This document shows positions 2,525 through 12,991 of a stretch of DNA of 29,351 nt, in pieces (position 1 is the stretch's first letter; each line of letters starts with the position of its first letter). The DNA comes from a virus. The DNA is taken from positions 1 through 29,351 of the IMG/VR virus record IMGVR_UViG_3300021437_000067, one strand, 5' to 3'. A model generated the notes under the pieces. That model made no database searches, was not told the DNA's origin, and saw only the letters and a program-made list of their open reading frames with translations. Made by a program: the position numbers and the translations under genes.

Positions 2525-2773
2525 ATGACGAACGAAGCGGCGATCATCAGCTACCCCAACACCCAGGCAGACGCGCAGGCACAGGACATGATCGAGCGGC
2601 TCTCTACCGAGAACCGCAAGCTGCTCGAGAGCAACGCGCGCATGGCCGCCAACACCCACCGCCTCGAGGAGCGCTGCGCTCGCCTGCTCGACGAAGTGGA
2701 CGAGCTCGGCATCAAGGTCCGCGACCTGCTCCGCGAGAAGCGCGCCGCGAAGCGCAAGGCCGGTGCCCGGTGA
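2525..2773 (+). CDS. Small coiled-coil protein
   Basis: 82 residues, with ATG at 2525 preceded by AGGAGA at 2514-2519. After a short N-terminal segment, the protein is a near-continuous heptad-rich helix from about residue 20 (DMIERLSTENRKLLESNARM) through RLLDEVDELGIKVRDLLREK, ending in a Lys/Arg tail. It is most likely a coiled-coil oligomer. There is no catalytic motif. The 41-base gap before it contains CCCCGGGG and no other clear signal. It ends in a GTGA overlap with the next gene. Function unknown. Confidence 0.7.
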   Translation: MTNEAAIISYPNTQADAQAQDMIERLSTENRKLLESNARMAANTHRLEERCARLLDEVDELGIKVRDLLREKRAAKRKAGAR

Positions 2774-3177
2774 CCACACGCCGGCCCGCCACGGCGATGA
2801 CCGACGAGGAATACATGGCCGCGGTCGACCGCCTCGACGAGATGGAGCGCGCGGAGCTGCTGCTCTTCCGCGTCCAGATCGAGGCCCGCATGGTCATGAT
2901 CGACACCAGCCTCCAGGACGCCCGCGCGCGGCGCCGCGCGGAGAACACCGCGCGCCCTGTGGACGCGGAGTGGTTCGGGCGCGCCCTCGCTGCGCGGCGC
3001 AAGGCGGGGCTCACGCACCAGCGTGTGCAGGCCCGGCTCGCGCTGCTGCGCGAGGGGACGCGCGAGCGGAACACGCGCGACGCGCTCTTCGTGGAGGCGG
3101 CCGCGGAGCTGCTTCCCCAGGGGGAGTACGAGCGGATTTGGGACGCGGTGGGCGCACGCCGCAGGGGGGAGCGCTGA
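2770..3177 (+). CDS. Unknown helical protein
   Basis: 135 residues starting at GTG in a GTGA overlap with the coiled-coil gene. It is highly charged and predicted helical, with repeated Arg/Glu/Ala blocks such as EYMAAVDRLDEMERAELLLF and RRKAGLTHQRVQARLALLRE. It has no cysteines, no membrane segments and no motif I recognise. The stop codon is separated from the methyltransferase ATG by two bases, so the two are likely co-translated. An accessory role alongside the methyltransferase is possible, but only position suggests it. Confidence 0.65.
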   Translation: MTTRRPATAMTDEEYMAAVDRLDEMERAELLLFRVQIEARMVMIDTSLQDARARRRAENTARPVDAEWFGRALAARRKAGLTHQRVQARLALLREGTRERNTRDALFVEAAAELLPQGEYERIWDAVGARRRGER

Positions 3178-3179
3178 CC

Positions 3180-3893
3180 ATGGGCGAGCAGCCGTCGCTG
3201 TTCAGCGCCGAGCTCCACCACGGAGACTTCGGGCGCTTCCGCGTAGACCACGCCGACGCCGTCGCGTGGCTGCGCGGGCTCCCGCCCGAGTCGGTGGACC
3301 TCATCGTCACCGACCCGGCGTACGAGAGCCTCGAGAAGCACCGGGCCGTCGGCACCACGACGCGCCTGCAGAGCTGGTTCGACATCTTCCCGAACGCGCG
3401 CTTCCCCGAGCTGTTCGCCGCAGCCTTCCGCGCGCTGCGGCGCGACGCGCACCTCTACTTGATCTGCGACCAGGAGACCATGTTCGTGGTGAAGCCCATG
3501 GGCGAGGCCGCGGGCTTCACGTTCTGGAAGCCGCTGATCTGGGACAAGCAGACGATCGGCATGGGCTACCACTACCGCTCCCGCTACGAGGTGGTGCTCT
3601 TCTTCGAGAAGGGCGAGCGCAAGCTCAACGACCTCGGCATGGCCGACGTGATCGCCGCGAAGCGCGTGCGCGACGGATACCCCACGGAGAAGCCCGTGGA
3701 GCTGCTCCGCCCGCTCATCGAGCAGAGCACGCGCCCGGGCGAGGTGGTGGCCGACTGCTTCACGGGCTCGGGCTCGTGCGGCGAGGCCGCGCTGCGCGCC
3801 GAGCGGCGCTTCCTCGGCTGCGACGTGTCTTCAGAGACGGCGCGGAACGCGTCCACGCGTCTGCAACGCGTGGCGGAGGAGCTCGCGCCATGA
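3180..3893 (+). CDS. DNA methyltransferase, beta class (N6-adenine or N4-cytosine)
   Basis: A 237-residue SAM-dependent DNA methyltransferase. The catalytic motif IV is DPAY at residues 45-48, in the strand VDLIVTDPAY. The SAM-binding motif I comes later, as DCFTGSGSCGEAAL at residues 192-205. The order IV before I defines the beta class. A PTEKP motif at 168-172, as in the conserved motif next to motif I, and FLGCDVSSE at 211-219 complete the fold. The family methylates exocyclic amines of adenine or cytosine; specificity cannot be read from sequence. It is short, with little room for a target-recognition domain, and no restriction endonuclease lies nearby. It is therefore probably a solitary phage enzyme that protects DNA from host restriction. 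Confidence 0.9.
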   Translation: MGEQPSLFSAELHHGDFGRFRVDHADAVAWLRGLPPESVDLIVTDPAYESLEKHRAVGTTTRLQSWFDIFPNARFPELFAAAFRALRRDAHLYLICDQETMFVVKPMGEAAGFTFWKPLIWDKQTIGMGYHYRSRYEVVLFFEKGERKLNDLGMADVIAAKRVRDGYPTEKPVELLRPLIEQSTRPGEVVADCFTGSGSCGEAALRAERRFLGCDVSSETARNASTRLQRVAEELAP

Positions 3894-7220: not shown

Positions 7221-7650
7221 GCGGCTGTGGATCGCTGGGCGAATGCCGGGTTTGAACGAGCTGCTCGACATGCGCGGCGCGCCGCCGGTGAAGCGCCGCA
7301 CGCGCAGCGGCCGCATCGTGCGCGTGCAGAACCCGGCCTACCACGAGGCCAAGGAGCATTGGGCCGGCGTGATCGCGCTGCTCGTGGGGCACGCCCGGAT
7401 CCAGCCTTGGCCGACGGGCGCGCACTTCGTGTACGAGTGGCACGAGTCCGACAAGCGGCGCGACCCGCTGAACTTCGCGGCCGGTGGACAGAAGTTCATC
7501 GAGGACGCGCTGCAGGAATGCGGCGTGCTGCCCAACGACGGGTGGAAGCACGTCTTGAGCTTCGCGCACAGGTGGAAGCAGAGCGACCGCCCGGGCGTGC
7601 TGGTGGTGATGAGCGACGAGCCTTTGGTGGTGGAAGCGAGGGTGGGATGA
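7210..7650 (+). CDS. rusA: RusA-type Holliday junction resolvase
   Basis: 146 residues, the usual length for RusA. The family resolves four-way DNA junctions, here probably during phage recombination or before packaging. The signature is visible: RRDPLNFAAGGQKFIEDALQ at residues 83-102, followed by ECGVLPNDGWKHV, with Lys95, Asp99 and Asp110 in place. The motif is DPLN where RusA proteins usually have a second acidic residue (D-x-D-N), so Leu87 replaces one of the metal-binding aspartates. ATG 7210 is preceded by a GGGAG sequence and overlaps the previous gene by 11 bases; the stop forms an ATGA overlap with the next gene. Confidence 0.85.
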   Translation: MRVERLWIAGRMPGLNELLDMRGAPPVKRRTRSGRIVRVQNPAYHEAKEHWAGVIALLVGHARIQPWPTGAHFVYEWHESDKRRDPLNFAAGGQKFIEDALQECGVLPNDGWKHVLSFAHRWKQSDRPGVLVVMSDEPLVVEARVG

Positions 7651-8066
7651 GTTACGTGCTGGTCATCACCGGCTCCCGGCTCGGCCACAGCGCCGTCGAG
7701 CGCGAGCTCGAACGGCTGGTGGAAGACCTTGGCGTGCCCACCTCCATGCTCGTCGGCGATGCTGAGGGCGTCGACCGCCAGGCTCGAGAGTTCGCGGCCG
7801 CGCATGACTGGCCCATGGCCGTCTTCCGCGCCGACTGGACCCGCTACGGTAAGGCGGCAGGACCGACCCGAAACGAGACCATGGTGCACAGCGCATGGCT
7901 GCGCTCGGGCAAGGGCGTGTTCCGCGTGATCGTGCTCGCGTTCCCAGTGGGCGAAGCACGCGGCACGCGCGACTGCATGCGCAGGGCGCGCGCGGCTGGG
8001 TTCGAGATCTACGCGTACGACGAGACGCGATACCGCTGCGTGCGGTGGGAAGGCGAGGCAGCGTGA
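7647..8066 (+). CDS. DUF2493/SLOG-family nucleotide-binding protein
   Basis: 139 residues with a Rossmann-like start YVLVITGSRLG (residues 3-13), the motif VGDAEGVDRQAREFAAAHDW in the middle and AGPTRNETMV further on. These three motifs characterise the DUF2493 branch of the SLOG superfamily, which is related to lysine decarboxylase-like and DprA-like nucleotide or ligand-binding domains. The biochemical role in phages is unknown; nucleotide-derivative sensing or processing is proposed for the wider superfamily. It starts in an ATGA overlap with rusA. Confidence 0.8.
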   Translation: MSYVLVITGSRLGHSAVERELERLVEDLGVPTSMLVGDAEGVDRQAREFAAAHDWPMAVFRADWTRYGKAAGPTRNETMVHSAWLRSGKGVFRVIVLAFPVGEARGTRDCMRRARAAGFEIYAYDETRYRCVRWEGEAA

Positions 8067-8678: not shown

Positions 8679-8947
8679 GCAAGAACAGGGTTTGGGTCGA
8701 GGTCGTGCACCGCTGCGAGATGTGCGGGGACACGCATCGCGGGAGCACGGAGACGTTCATCTCGACGACGTCACCCGAGAGCGTCTCGAAGCTGACGCTC
8801 CTGCCGCGTGGCTGGGGCACGTTCGGTCGCTCGACAAGGGAGGGCAGCGACACGATGCAGCTGTGCCCTGAGTGCAACGAGGGCGTGCGGGCGGCGGTCG
8901 ACTCCGCGCGCGAGGCCCGTGTGACAGCCAAGGCCGCTCAGCCGTGA
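8675..8947 (+). CDS. Small zinc-ribbon protein (CxxC...CxxC)
   Basis: 90 residues in an ATGA overlap with the previous gene. Two cysteine pairs, CEMCGDTHRG near residue 14 and LCPECNEGV near residue 65, flank a Ser/Thr-rich beta segment (ETFISTTSPESVSKLTLLPR). This is a classic four-cysteine zinc-ribbon layout. It is probably a small nucleic-acid or protein adaptor, but the role is not known. Its stop forms a TGATG overlap with the ParB-like gene. Confidence 0.7.
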   Translation: MSKNRVWVEVVHRCEMCGDTHRGSTETFISTTSPESVSKLTLLPRGWGTFGRSTREGSDTMQLCPECNEGVRAAVDSAREARVTAKAAQP

Positions 8948-9639
8948 TGACCGACCCCATGACCACCAACGCGCGCGCGACCTCCGATGATTCTGCCGCG
9001 GTGTGGGTGAAGCTCGCCGACATCCGCCCTTGGGAGCAGAACCCGAAGAAGCACACCAAGCGCTCGATCCAGACCACGATCGACAGCCTGCGCCTGTGCG
9101 GTTGGGGTCGCCCTCTCGGCACGTGGCATGGGCGGCTGATCTGGGGCCACGGCACGCGCCTCGCCGCCCAGGCGCTGATCAACACGTGGAAGAAGATGGG
9201 CGCGGCCGAGCGCGAGCGCGTGCAGGCGGAAGACGCTCCGGAGAGCGAGCGCTGGCACCCCGAAGCCGTGCGCACCGCCACCACGGGCGAAGTGCCCGCG
9301 CGAGCGCGCGACGACCTCCCGGAGCGCCTGGCGACTCGCCTCGCCCTGGTGGACAACCGCGCGGCCGAGCACAGCGAGTACGACGTCGAGGCGCTGCTCG
9401 CACATCTGAACGACTTCGGGCTCGACGCCGTCGACTCGATGGGCTGGAACGCGGAGGAGCTCGACGCGCTCGCCAGCTCCATGATGGGCTCGGGCGGCGG
9501 CGATGACGAGCCGTTCGAGGACCCGCCGGAGGGCACGAAGACGCCGCAGATCGTGGTGACGCTGCCGACGCGCCACGCGCGCGACGAGGCGCTCCGTAAG
9601 CTCGAGGCCCTGGGCTACGTGTGCAAGGCCAAGAACTGA
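8947..9639 (+). CDS. ParB/Srx-like domain protein next to terminase
   Basis: 230 residues. The N-terminal domain reads VWVKLADIRPWEQNPKKHTK, then SIQTTIDSLRLCGWGRPLGT and WGHGTRLAAQALI, matching the ParB/sulfiredoxin-like N-terminal fold in which the GHxR-type loop binds a nucleotide. Next come LALVDNRAAEHSEYDVEALL and an acidic linker, then a small alpha/beta tail (TPQIVVTLPTRHARDEALRK). Phages often carry such ParB-nuclease-like proteins beside terminase or methyltransferase genes. They may be nucleases, CTPases or packaging accessories; which applies here cannot be told. ATG 8947 lies in a TGATG overlap. The N-terminal domain is convincing, the function less so. Confidence 0.75.
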   Translation: MTDPMTTNARATSDDSAAVWVKLADIRPWEQNPKKHTKRSIQTTIDSLRLCGWGRPLGTWHGRLIWGHGTRLAAQALINTWKKMGAAERERVQAEDAPESERWHPEAVRTATTGEVPARARDDLPERLATRLALVDNRAAEHSEYDVEALLAHLNDFGLDAVDSMGWNAEELDALASSMMGSGGGDDEPFEDPPEGTKTPQIVVTLPTRHARDEALRKLEALGYVCKAKN

Positions 9640-9645
9640 GGGCGC

Positions 9646-10158
9646 ATGTCCGAGGAGCGCAAGGGCTACGAGATCACGAAGCGGGACACGAGCCCGAAGC
9701 TCACCGACGAGGTGATGCTCAAGATCGCCAAGTCGGTCGCCGCGGGGCTCTCGATCCCGGTCGCGTGCGAAGCCAACGGGCTCAGCTGGAACACGGTGAA
9801 GCGCTGGCTCGACCTGGGAAAGAAGGGGCGCAAGCCTTACCGCGAGTTCGTCGACGCCATGAACGAAGCGAAAGCGCGCTTCGAGCAGGGTGCTGTGGCC
9901 GCCATCGCGCTGCACGGGAAAAAGAAGGACTGGAAGGCCGCGGCGTGGCTGCTCGAGCGCCGCTACCCCGAGCGCTACTACAAGCCGGAGAAGCCGCCCG
10001 AGGCGCAGCAGCAGCGCCCCGACGTCGTGTTCTTCTACCCGGCCGTCGCGCCGCCCGGTGCGGAGGGCGCGAAGCCCACGCTGCCCCCGGGGCCCACGCT
10101 CGTCTTCCCGCCGCTCAAGGCGCCTGAGACTGTCGACGCAGAGGGCGAAGACATGTAG
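9646..10158 (+). CDS. Terminase small subunit
   Basis: 170 residues located just before the large terminase. Residues 20-56 form a helix-turn-helix: LTDEVMLKIAKSVAAGLSIP followed by VACEANGLSWNTVKRWLDLG, as in small terminases that recognise packaging sites. A second helical segment (YREFVDAMNEAKARFEQGAV, then WLLERRYPERYYKP) is typical of the oligomerisation region of terminase small subunits of this type. The last 50 residues are Pro-rich and probably disordered, perhaps contacting the large subunit. It starts six bases after the ParB-like stop. Confidence 0.8.
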   Translation: MSEERKGYEITKRDTSPKLTDEVMLKIAKSVAAGLSIPVACEANGLSWNTVKRWLDLGKKGRKPYREFVDAMNEAKARFEQGAVAAIALHGKKKDWKAAAWLLERRYPERYYKPEKPPEAQQQRPDVVFFYPAVAPPGAEGAKPTLPPGPTLVFPPLKAPETVDAEGEDM

Positions 10159-10291: not shown

Positions 10292-12991
10292 GTGGCCGAA
10301 CCCGCGTCGCGCCCTCGAGAGATTCGTCCGCAGGCGGGCCCGCAGGAAACGTTCTGCGCGAGCCCCGCGGACATCGCCATCTACGGGGGCAGCGCGTTCG
10401 GCGGGAAAATGCTCCCGCTTTCGACGCCCATCCCCACGCCCACGGGCTGGACCACGATGGGCGAGCTGCGCGTCGGCGACATGGTGATCAGCGACGAGGG
10501 CGTGCCCACCATGGTCACGTGGCTCTCGGATGTGGATCCGCTGCCCGATGCGTACGAGCTCACCTTCGACGACGGCGCCAAGATCCGCGCCTGCGGCGAC
10601 CACCAGTGGGTGACGCTGACGTACGACGAGCGCCTGCGGCTGCTCAGGACGTCGGAGGAGTGGCGCGAGGGCCGGAGGGCGAAGCGAGCGTCGCGCGGCA
10701 CCGGCAAGCGCCCCGACCTTGCCGAGCGCAACGCTGCCCGCGCCGTGCTCAAGCAGCCGCCGCCCAACCCGCGCGGATCGGTGCGCACGACGCGCGAGAT
10801 CGCCGACACGCTTTACACGGGCCGGCGCGCGAATCACGCCATCGTGAACCCCGCGCCGCTCGCGCTGCCTCATGCCGACCTCCCGATCCCGCCGTACGTG
10901 CTCGGGGCCTGGCTTGGCGACGGCACATCAGTGAGCGGAGGGCTCACCAGCGCCGACCCCGAGCTCGTGGAGAGCGTGCGCGCCCGCGGGTACGAGGTGC
11001 GCCGCGTTCCGAGCTCGACTTACGGCTACACCGTCGTCGGCCTGTCCACGCAGCTTCGCGCGCTGGGCCTGCGCAGCAACAAGCACATCCCGGCCGCCTA
11101 CCTGCGTGCCTCAATGGCCCAGCGCCTCGAACTGCTACAGGGCCTGTGCGACACCGACGGCTTCGCCTGCAAGCTGAAGGGCTCCGTCGAGTTCACCACC
11201 ACGCTGCCCGCGCTACGCGACGGTGTGCTGGAGCTGCTCGCCACCCTCGGCATCAAGCCGAGCTGCCGCGAGGGCGTCGCCAAGCTCAACGGCCGAACGA
11301 TCGGACCGAAGTGGCGGATCCAGTTCTGGACGTCACTCCCTGCGTTCGAGCTCCAGCGCAAGCTCGCGCGCCAGCGTCGCGACAACGCGGACGGGCGGCG
11401 GTCGAAGCGGTTTATCGTGGACGCACGCGCGTGCGCCAGCGAGCCCATGCGCTGCATCGGCGTGGACGCTCCGTCGCACTGTTACCTCGCGGGCCGCGAG
11501 ATGATCGTGACCCACAACAGTTGGGCCCTCGTGTTCGAGGCCGCGCGCTACACGCAGGTACAAGGCTACTCGGCGGTCATCTTCCGGCGCACGAGCCCGC
11601 AGCTCACCGGCGGTGGCTCGATCTGGGAAGAGACCAAGAAGCTCTACCCGCTGCTCGGTGGCGTGCCGAAGGCCTCGCCCAATCTGCAGTGGAACTTTGC
11701 CGCGGGCGCGCTCGTGCAGTTCATGCACATGCAGCACGAAGACGACGCGAACGAGCACCAGGGCAAGCAGTACGACTTCATCGGCTTCGACGAGGTCACG
11801 CACTTCACCGCCTACCAGTTCTGGTACCTGCTCAGCCGTCTTCGCTCCGGCAACGCGTCGATCCCGCGCCGCATGCGCGGCACGTGCAACCCCGACCCCG
11901 ACAGCTTCGTGCGCGAGCTTCTCGACTGGTGGATCGACGAGAAGACTGGCCTCGCCATCCCCGAGCGATCGGGCGTGCTGCGTTGGTTCGTGCGCATCGA
12001 CAACGTGCTCTATTGGGGCGCCTCGCCCGAGGAGCTCTACGCGCAGTTTGGTGATCGCGTGCGCCGTCGCGGCGAAGACCCGACGGGCGACGACGACCAG
12101 CGCCCCTCGCCGATGAGCCTCACGTTCACGCGCGCGGCCGCGCGCGACAACAAGATCGGGCTCGCAGCAGACCCCGAATACCTGTCGCGCCTCGCGGCCA
12201 TCCCGGGAGCGGCGTCGAAGCGACTCCTGCAAGGCAACTGGAACGCGCGCGACACCGCGGGCGCGTTCTTCAACCGCAGCACGTTTCCCGTCGACACACA
12301 GCTGCCTGCGCCCGAGCGCGTGCGGCGCCGCGTGCGCTTCTGGGACAAGGCCGCGACGCCCGTATCCGAGACGAACAAGGATCCCGACTGGACCGCCGGC
12401 CCGTGCATTTGGGAGCTCGACGCCCCGCATCTGCCTGCGCTCCCGGGCGTGCCGGGCGGAGTCGAGTGGCTGGTCGCGGACCTCATCGCGCTGCGCGAAG
12501 GCCCCGCGATCGTGGAGGCCACGATGCTCGCCGCAGCGGAAGCCGACGGCACGGACACCATGGTCGGATGCTGGCAGGACCCCGGACAAGCGGGCGTGGT
12601 CGACGTCGCGCACATGCAGACGCTGTTCGCCGACTACAGCACGCAGTTCGTGCGCAGCTCGCGCGATAAGGCGGTCTATGCCGGCGTCTGGGCGAAGCGA
12701 GCTCAGGCGGGCCGCGTGCGCGTCATGCAGCACGTCGCGCGCCACCCGCTGTTCTTCCAGCAGCTCGAGGCCTTCCCCGACGGGCGCACGCACGACGACG
12801 TGGTCGACGGGTGCTCGGGGTGCTTCCAGGTCTTCACCGGCGGCATCACCTCGTTCGAGCACCAGAGCGTGCCCGACACGCGTCACGCAGCGCCGAAGGA
12901 CACGAGCCGCGCGGCCGCGCTCGGCATGTACGCGCCGGCAGACGACGACGAACCCTCTGCGGGCCGCTCCGGCGGCCACAGGTACTTCTGA
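10292..12991 (+). CDS. Terminase large subunit, interrupted by an intein
   Basis: An 899-codon gene. Removing residues 40-409 (the intein) leaves a 529-residue terminase, the normal size. The ATPase Walker A reads YGGSAFGGK then S after splicing, with the insertion between Lys and Ser. Walker B is YDFIGFDEVTHF at about 11771-11806. The nuclease domain shows VRFWDKAATP (about 12335-12364), GCWQDPGQAG and the acidic cluster THDDVVDGCSGCF (about 12790-12828). It cuts phage DNA and drives it through the portal. The N-terminal lead-in REIRPQAGPQETFCASPADI is typical. The GTG at 10292 is the nearest sensible start, but no Shine-Dalgarno sequence precedes it; GTG 10223 is an alternative. The stop forms a TGATG overlap with the portal gene. 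Confidence 0.9.
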   Translation: MAEPASRPREIRPQAGPQETFCASPADIAIYGGSAFGGKMLPLSTPIPTPTGWTTMGELRVGDMVISDEGVPTMVTWLSDVDPLPDAYELTFDDGAKIRACGDHQWVTLTYDERLRLLRTSEEWREGRRAKRASRGTGKRPDLAERNAARAVLKQPPPNPRGSVRTTREIADTLYTGRRANHAIVNPAPLALPHADLPIPPYVLGAWLGDGTSVSGGLTSADPELVESVRARGYEVRRVPSSTYGYTVVGLSTQLRALGLRSNKHIPAAYLRASMAQRLELLQGLCDTDGFACKLKGSVEFTTTLPALRDGVLELLATLGIKPSCREGVAKLNGRTIGPKWRIQFWTSLPAFELQRKLARQRRDNADGRRSKRFIVDARACASEPMRCIGVDAPSHCYLAGREMIVTHNSWALVFEAARYTQVQGYSAVIFRRTSPQLTGGGSIWEETKKLYPLLGGVPKASPNLQWNFAAGALVQFMHMQHEDDANEHQGKQYDFIGFDEVTHFTAYQFWYLLSRLRSGNASIPRRMRGTCNPDPDSFVRELLDWWIDEKTGLAIPERSGVLRWFVRIDNVLYWGASPEELYAQFGDRVRRRGEDPTGDDDQRPSPMSLTFTRAAARDNKIGLAADPEYLSRLAAIPGAASKRLLQGNWNARDTAGAFFNRSTFPVDTQLPAPERVRRRVRFWDKAATPVSETNKDPDWTAGPCIWELDAPHLPALPGVPGGVEWLVADLIALREGPAIVEATMLAAAEADGTDTMVGCWQDPGQAGVVDVAHMQTLFADYSTQFVRSSRDKAVYAGVWAKRAQAGRVRVMQHVARHPLFFQQLEAFPDGRTHDDVVDGCSGCFQVFTGGITSFEHQSVPDTRHAAPKDTSRAAALGMYAPADDDEPSAGRSGGHRYF
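10409..11518 (+). mobile_element. Intein with LAGLIDADG homing endonuclease, class 3 type, Met at position 1
   Basis: 370 residues inserted between Lys and Ser of Walker A. Block A: LSTPIPTPTGWTTMGELRVG near the start. Block B: ACGDHQWVT with His65 and Trp67. Block F: MRCIGVD, with Cys349 where ordinary inteins have Asp. Block G: VTHN, with Thr368, His369 and terminal Asn370; the +1 residue is Ser. LAGLIDADG motifs: VLGAWLGDG (residues 164-172) and LLQGLCDTDG (242-251). Position 1 is Met, not Cys or Ser, so class 1 splicing is ruled out. Trp67/Cys349/Thr368 is the WCT triad of class 3 inteins, which begin splicing at the block F cysteine. The junctions are fixed by the host ATPase motif. The endonuclease would promote homing into empty terminase genes. 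Confidence 0.85.

Follow-up and report, generated by a model that had tools for sequence, protein, structure and literature searches.

A Met1 class 3 intein interrupting the P-loop of a phage large terminase, and covariation of its first residue with three positions of the splicing domain

The window (the whole stretch of DNA analysed, a virus record of 29,351 bases) encodes a large terminase of the Terminase_6 type, whose ATPase and nuclease domains carry their conserved residues. The small terminase gene lies beside it and a Mu-type portal protein gene adjoins it; genes for the major head protein and the tail sheath are found farther downstream. The same phage also carries a ParB-like gene (8872-9639), a DNA methyltransferase gene (2763-3893) and an open frame (7227-8066) matching a PHROG annotated as a GTP-binding domain. 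No near-identical phage to the window was found. The large terminase gene contains an insert of 370 codons (10409-11518), which is open and in the terminase frame. The features are as follows.

9646..10158, + strand: small terminase subunit, neighbour gene (PHROG 4102, 2.2e-21)
10292..12991, + strand: large terminase with intein, precursor of 899 aa from GTG 10292 (Pfam Terminase_6N, 7.9e-16; PHROG 979, 1.2e-118)
10292..10408, + strand: N-extein, ending in Walker A GGSAFGGK (aligned with empty-site relatives)
10409..11518, + strand: class 3 intein, 370 aa
10409..10411, + strand: Met1, no N-terminal nucleophile
10550..10552, + strand: Ala48, at the position of Cys48 in most class 3 inteins
10592..10594, + strand: Cys62 (block B:7), Asp in most class 3 inteins
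10601..10609, + strand: His65-Gln-Trp67, block B His and Trp of the WCT triad
10901..10924, + strand: first LAGLIDADG motif LGAWLGDG (block C), recognised by motif
11132..11161, + strand: second LAGLIDADG motif LLQGLCDTDG (block E; Pfam LAGLIDADG_3, PF14528, 2.4e-08, residues 238-297)
11447..11455, + strand: Met347-Arg-Cys349, covarying Met (F:2) and catalytic Cys (F:4) of the WCT triad
11510..11518, + strand: Thr368-His369-Asn370 (block G)
11519..12988, + strand: C-extein, with Ser+1, the remainder of the ATPase and the nuclease

The insertion site was defined by comparison with intein-free terminases. In the window the insert is preceded by GGSAFGGK and followed by SWALVFEAAR, with Lys(-1) encoded by AAA (10406-10408) and Ser+1 by AGT (11519-11521). 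Viral contigs supplied about 95 relatives of the C-extein, with identities of 28-53%. Where their stretch reaches the site, the empty-site relatives read ADIxIYGGAAGGGK followed without a gap by S/T (GGxxGGGK, then S/T), and the nearest of them (L180, C-extein 53% identical) reads ADIAIYGGSAGGGK followed directly by TWALAYEAAR. Walker A thus runs straight into the C-extein in these proteins, and the insertion between Lys and Ser of Walker A, proposed in the sequence-only reading, proved exact against the approximately 95 empty relatives, with coordinates, frame and residues as claimed and with sound boundaries. Among about 100 close exteins (the window's own included), no insert detectable with the window's intein was found besides the window's own, a sporadic distribution of the kind that a mobile element should show. 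The codon GC3 of the intein (0.91) and of the C-extein (0.90) is alike. The extein retains the residues that are invariant across its family, and a functional terminase would therefore presumably need splicing. Two in-frame candidate starts, GTG 10292 and GTG 10223, follow the small terminase stop at 10158; neither has a clear ribosome-binding site, and which of them is used is uncertain. The predicted spliced product of 529 residues stands if translation starts at GTG 10292, but not if it starts at GTG 10223, which is possible too.

The insert carries every element of the signature by which PMC3196547 defines class 3. Its WCT triad (Trp B:12, Cys F:4, Thr G:5) consists of Trp67, Cys349 and Thr368, which align with Trp67, Cys124 and Thr143 of the solved class 3 intein 6rix. 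Moreover, Cys, Ser and Thr are absent at residue 1, and His65, His369-Asn370 and Ser+1 are present. His65, Trp67, Cys349, Thr368 and Asn370 were each invariant in 259 of 259 distinct related inteins, far beyond chance. Of the solved relatives, the DnaB inteins of M. chimaera and M. smegmatis, both class 3, matched best (E 1e-22 to 1e-18), and class 3 structures scored 70-83 bits, compared with at most 24 bits for the class 1 intein gp41-1. In a tree built without class 1 inteins, the window intein grouped with L003 (Leu1) and L004 (Gly1) with a support of 92, all at the same motif. The residues and the matches to solved structures bear out the earlier assignment of Met1 together with the class 3 triad. 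Single-protein scans with L005, L006 and L047 returned almost no new intein relatives. In a few class 3 inteins the penultimate residue is not His, and TRN, TCN, TGN or TSN precedes the C-extein (L307:601-1578, L101:3001-3984, L360:1501-2481, L074:73-1125). Cys1 together with a full WCT triad was also seen (L076:3001-3969, L305:463-1512; the Acidovorax phage ACF1 terminase intein is among them), and L076 and L305 retain Cys48 and Asp62.

The endonuclease region was compared in sequence and in predicted fold. The acidic residues of the two LAGLIDADG motifs are retained. An AlphaFold2 model of the intein, built from 59 aligned inteins, had a mean pLDDT of 91 and showed a LAGLIDADG endonuclease joined to an intein fold. 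In Foldseek searches the model matched, across its full length, the intein PI-SceI, whose LAGLIDADG endonuclease has two lobes (E 2e-20), and the splicing part of the model matched class 3 DnaB inteins with a target TM of 0.8. The two intact motifs noticed from the sequence are thus supported by the retained acidic residues, the Pfam match on the second and the PI-SceI fold match, and the endonuclease fold, as judged from sequence and model, is likely to be intact.

Taken together with what is established for known class 3 inteins, the sequence and the model point, with high confidence, to a class 3 intein that is full-length and functional, carries a LAGLIDADG homing endonuclease and interrupts the P-loop of the phage's large terminase. 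What was read directly here is the sequence, the insertion site, the family, the predicted fold and the covariation; chemistry, splicing, homing and packing are carried over from known class 3 inteins, with the mechanism taken from PMC3196547 and PMC4031507. The insert would fold once the terminase precursor has been translated, and Cys349, helped by His65 and Thr368, would make a direct attack on the Lys(-1)-Met1 bond. Transfer of the N-extein to Ser+1 and cyclisation of Asn370 would follow, and the restored Walker A GGSAFGGKS would allow the terminase to work, while the endonuclease would spread the insert to terminase genes that lack it. Met1 may be tolerated because of the make-up of the splicing domain, with Cys48 absent, Cys62 in place of Asp and Met347 in place of Val/Thr, and the covarying residues would pack around residue 1. 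Given that A1G in AceL NrdHF and C48A/S/T in DnaBi1 (PMC6195587) abolish splicing, activity with Met1 and Ala48 cannot be assumed from those inteins.

Because Met at residue 1 is unable to start class 1 splicing, the insert might be read as a class 1 intein in decay, in which the loss of Cys1 has impaired splicing. However, all class 3 residues are present, the conserved extein residues are intact, and class 3 relatives vary widely at position 1. At the same terminase site, 28 other inteins begin with Leu (9), Ala (8), Gly (6), Gln (2), Glu (2) or Met (1), and none of the 28 begins with Cys, which indicates that the window intein is not a decayed Cys1 copy; Cys1 homologues at this site had been named beforehand as the sign of decay. 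We consider such decay very improbable. The ATG exactly at the junction, with GGCGGGAAA just before it, could also suggest that translation starts internally at Met1 and yields a free fragment made of intein and C-extein, but sister inteins have Leu, Gln, Lys or Glu there, which leaves nothing special about Met, and this reading too deserves very little credence. The intein is also not very unusual, contrary to what had been supposed. Residue 1 in 259 sampled inteins was Ala (157), Pro (24), Met (23), Leu (14), Gly (13), Gln (11) or others, Lys and Arg included, so Met1 recurs in 23 of the 259, in a sample enriched for large residue 1 types. Phage terminases often carry class 3 inteins, those in terminase P-loops are already well known, and the window intein is one more phage class 3 intein. 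In a phage collection 749 records encode a relative, and an analysis of nr recorded 1701 class 3 inteins, 82.5% of them with LAGLIDADG motifs (PMC7891396).

A further reading accepts the class 3 intein and adds conditional splicing that times packaging. An insertion in the P-loop in principle inactivates the ATPase, and Msm DnaBi1, likewise a class 3 P-loop intein, is under redox control. However, that redox switch requires a Cys48-Cys118 disulfide (PMC6195587), and the Cys48 half of the pair is missing here, where residue 48 is Ala; Cys62 could conceivably take the place of that Cys. In E. coli, mycobacteriophage terminase inteins underwent splicing readily (PMC5050341), and the sporadic distribution (one in about 100 close exteins) fits a mobile element. 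Timing of packaging by this intein is therefore judged unlikely, though less so than the two readings weighed above.

Residue 1 varies together with three further positions of the splicing domain. In the first set of 147 inteins, Cys48 was absent from all five Met1 inteins and Cys62 replaced Asp in all five; a scan over all positions ranked 347, 48 and 62 highest for change with residue 1. The rule was applied to a held-out set of 75 newly fetched inteins. With a large residue 1 (n = 26), Cys48 was absent from 25 and Met347 present in 23, while Cys62 was found in only 12 of the 26, a weaker association than at 48 and 347. With Ala, Pro or Gly at residue 1 (n = 47), Cys48 was present in 38 and Met347 in 2. 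Among 130 rows less than 60% identical, 347 ranked first (p 7e-18) and 48 second (p 1e-16) of 369 positions, p values that ignore kinship, with 46 third and 62 fourth. A dependent-evolution test was carried out on a tree inferred with the four positions removed, the deep branches of which are weak; L342, L345, L039 and L348 were omitted from the test because their alignment at residue 1 or block F was off or doubtful. The likelihood ratios were 52 for residue 1 with 48 and 59 for residue 1 with 347, compared with at most 13.4 in 13 control columns. A stricter independent-pair test on supported branches gave 4-6 pairs, too few to reach significance, and none contradicted 1-48, 1-347 or 48-347.

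A large residue 1 therefore occurs almost only without Cys48, and mostly with Met347 rather than Val/Thr and with a residue other than Asp at 62. These patterns could mean that class 3 comprises two interchangeable active-site types, a small one (Ala/Pro/Gly1, Cys48, Asp62, Val/Thr347) and a large one (Met/Leu/Gln/Lys/Arg/Glu1, without Cys48, Met347, often Cys62), and that the window intein belongs to the latter; we give the two proposals jointly about even chances. The switch between the types seems to have arisen several times. In DnaBi1 every Cys48 substitution tried stops splicing, the role of Cys48 is unclear and the residue has been called non-conserved, and Asp62 lies near Ala1 (PMC6195587). 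Our survey indicates that Cys48 is widely conserved in class 3 and that natural exceptions mostly alter residue 1, 62 or 347 too; the simplest inference from these sequences is therefore that residues 1, 48, 62 and 347 would form or shape a pocket around the first residue and the scissile bond. No earlier description of a class 3 type with a large residue 1 was found in the part of the primary class 3 literature covered. The covariation of residue 1 with three splicing-domain positions is the sole new point, and a modest lead. Two types, if real, would help to explain why Cys48 is essential in DnaBi1 though it lies outside the splicing blocks, and the covariation might help the design of class 3 inteins accepting other first residues.

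Among known systems, mycobacteriophages carry both class 1 and class 3 inteins, and the five of their terminase inteins that were tested splice, with two endonucleases active (PMC5050341). TerL1-a and TerL1-b of these phages also lie in the P-loop of a large terminase, TerL1-a between Lys and Thr, a likeness of site that leaves the class of TerL1-a aside. Their exteins are of the Terminase_1 type, whereas the window extein is of the Terminase_6N type, and the window intein is less than 40% identical to the phage inteins among the matches listed. M. smegmatis DnaBi1 and M. chimaera DnaB1 (6bs8, 6rix) share with it class 3, the triad, His65 and the numbering up to Trp67, and DnaBi1 shares the P-loop location as well. 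In contrast, both are mini-inteins without endonuclease, with Ala1, Cys48 and Asp62 where the window intein has Met1, Ala48 and Cys62. The Walker A inteins of uncultured-phage terminases (L003, L310, L331 and others) are class 3 inteins at the same site, 48-56% identical to that of the window; the exteins of L003, L004 and L012 are only distant relatives of the window extein. The L331 intein shares Met1 with the window intein, whereas most other such Walker A inteins begin with Leu, Ala or Gly.
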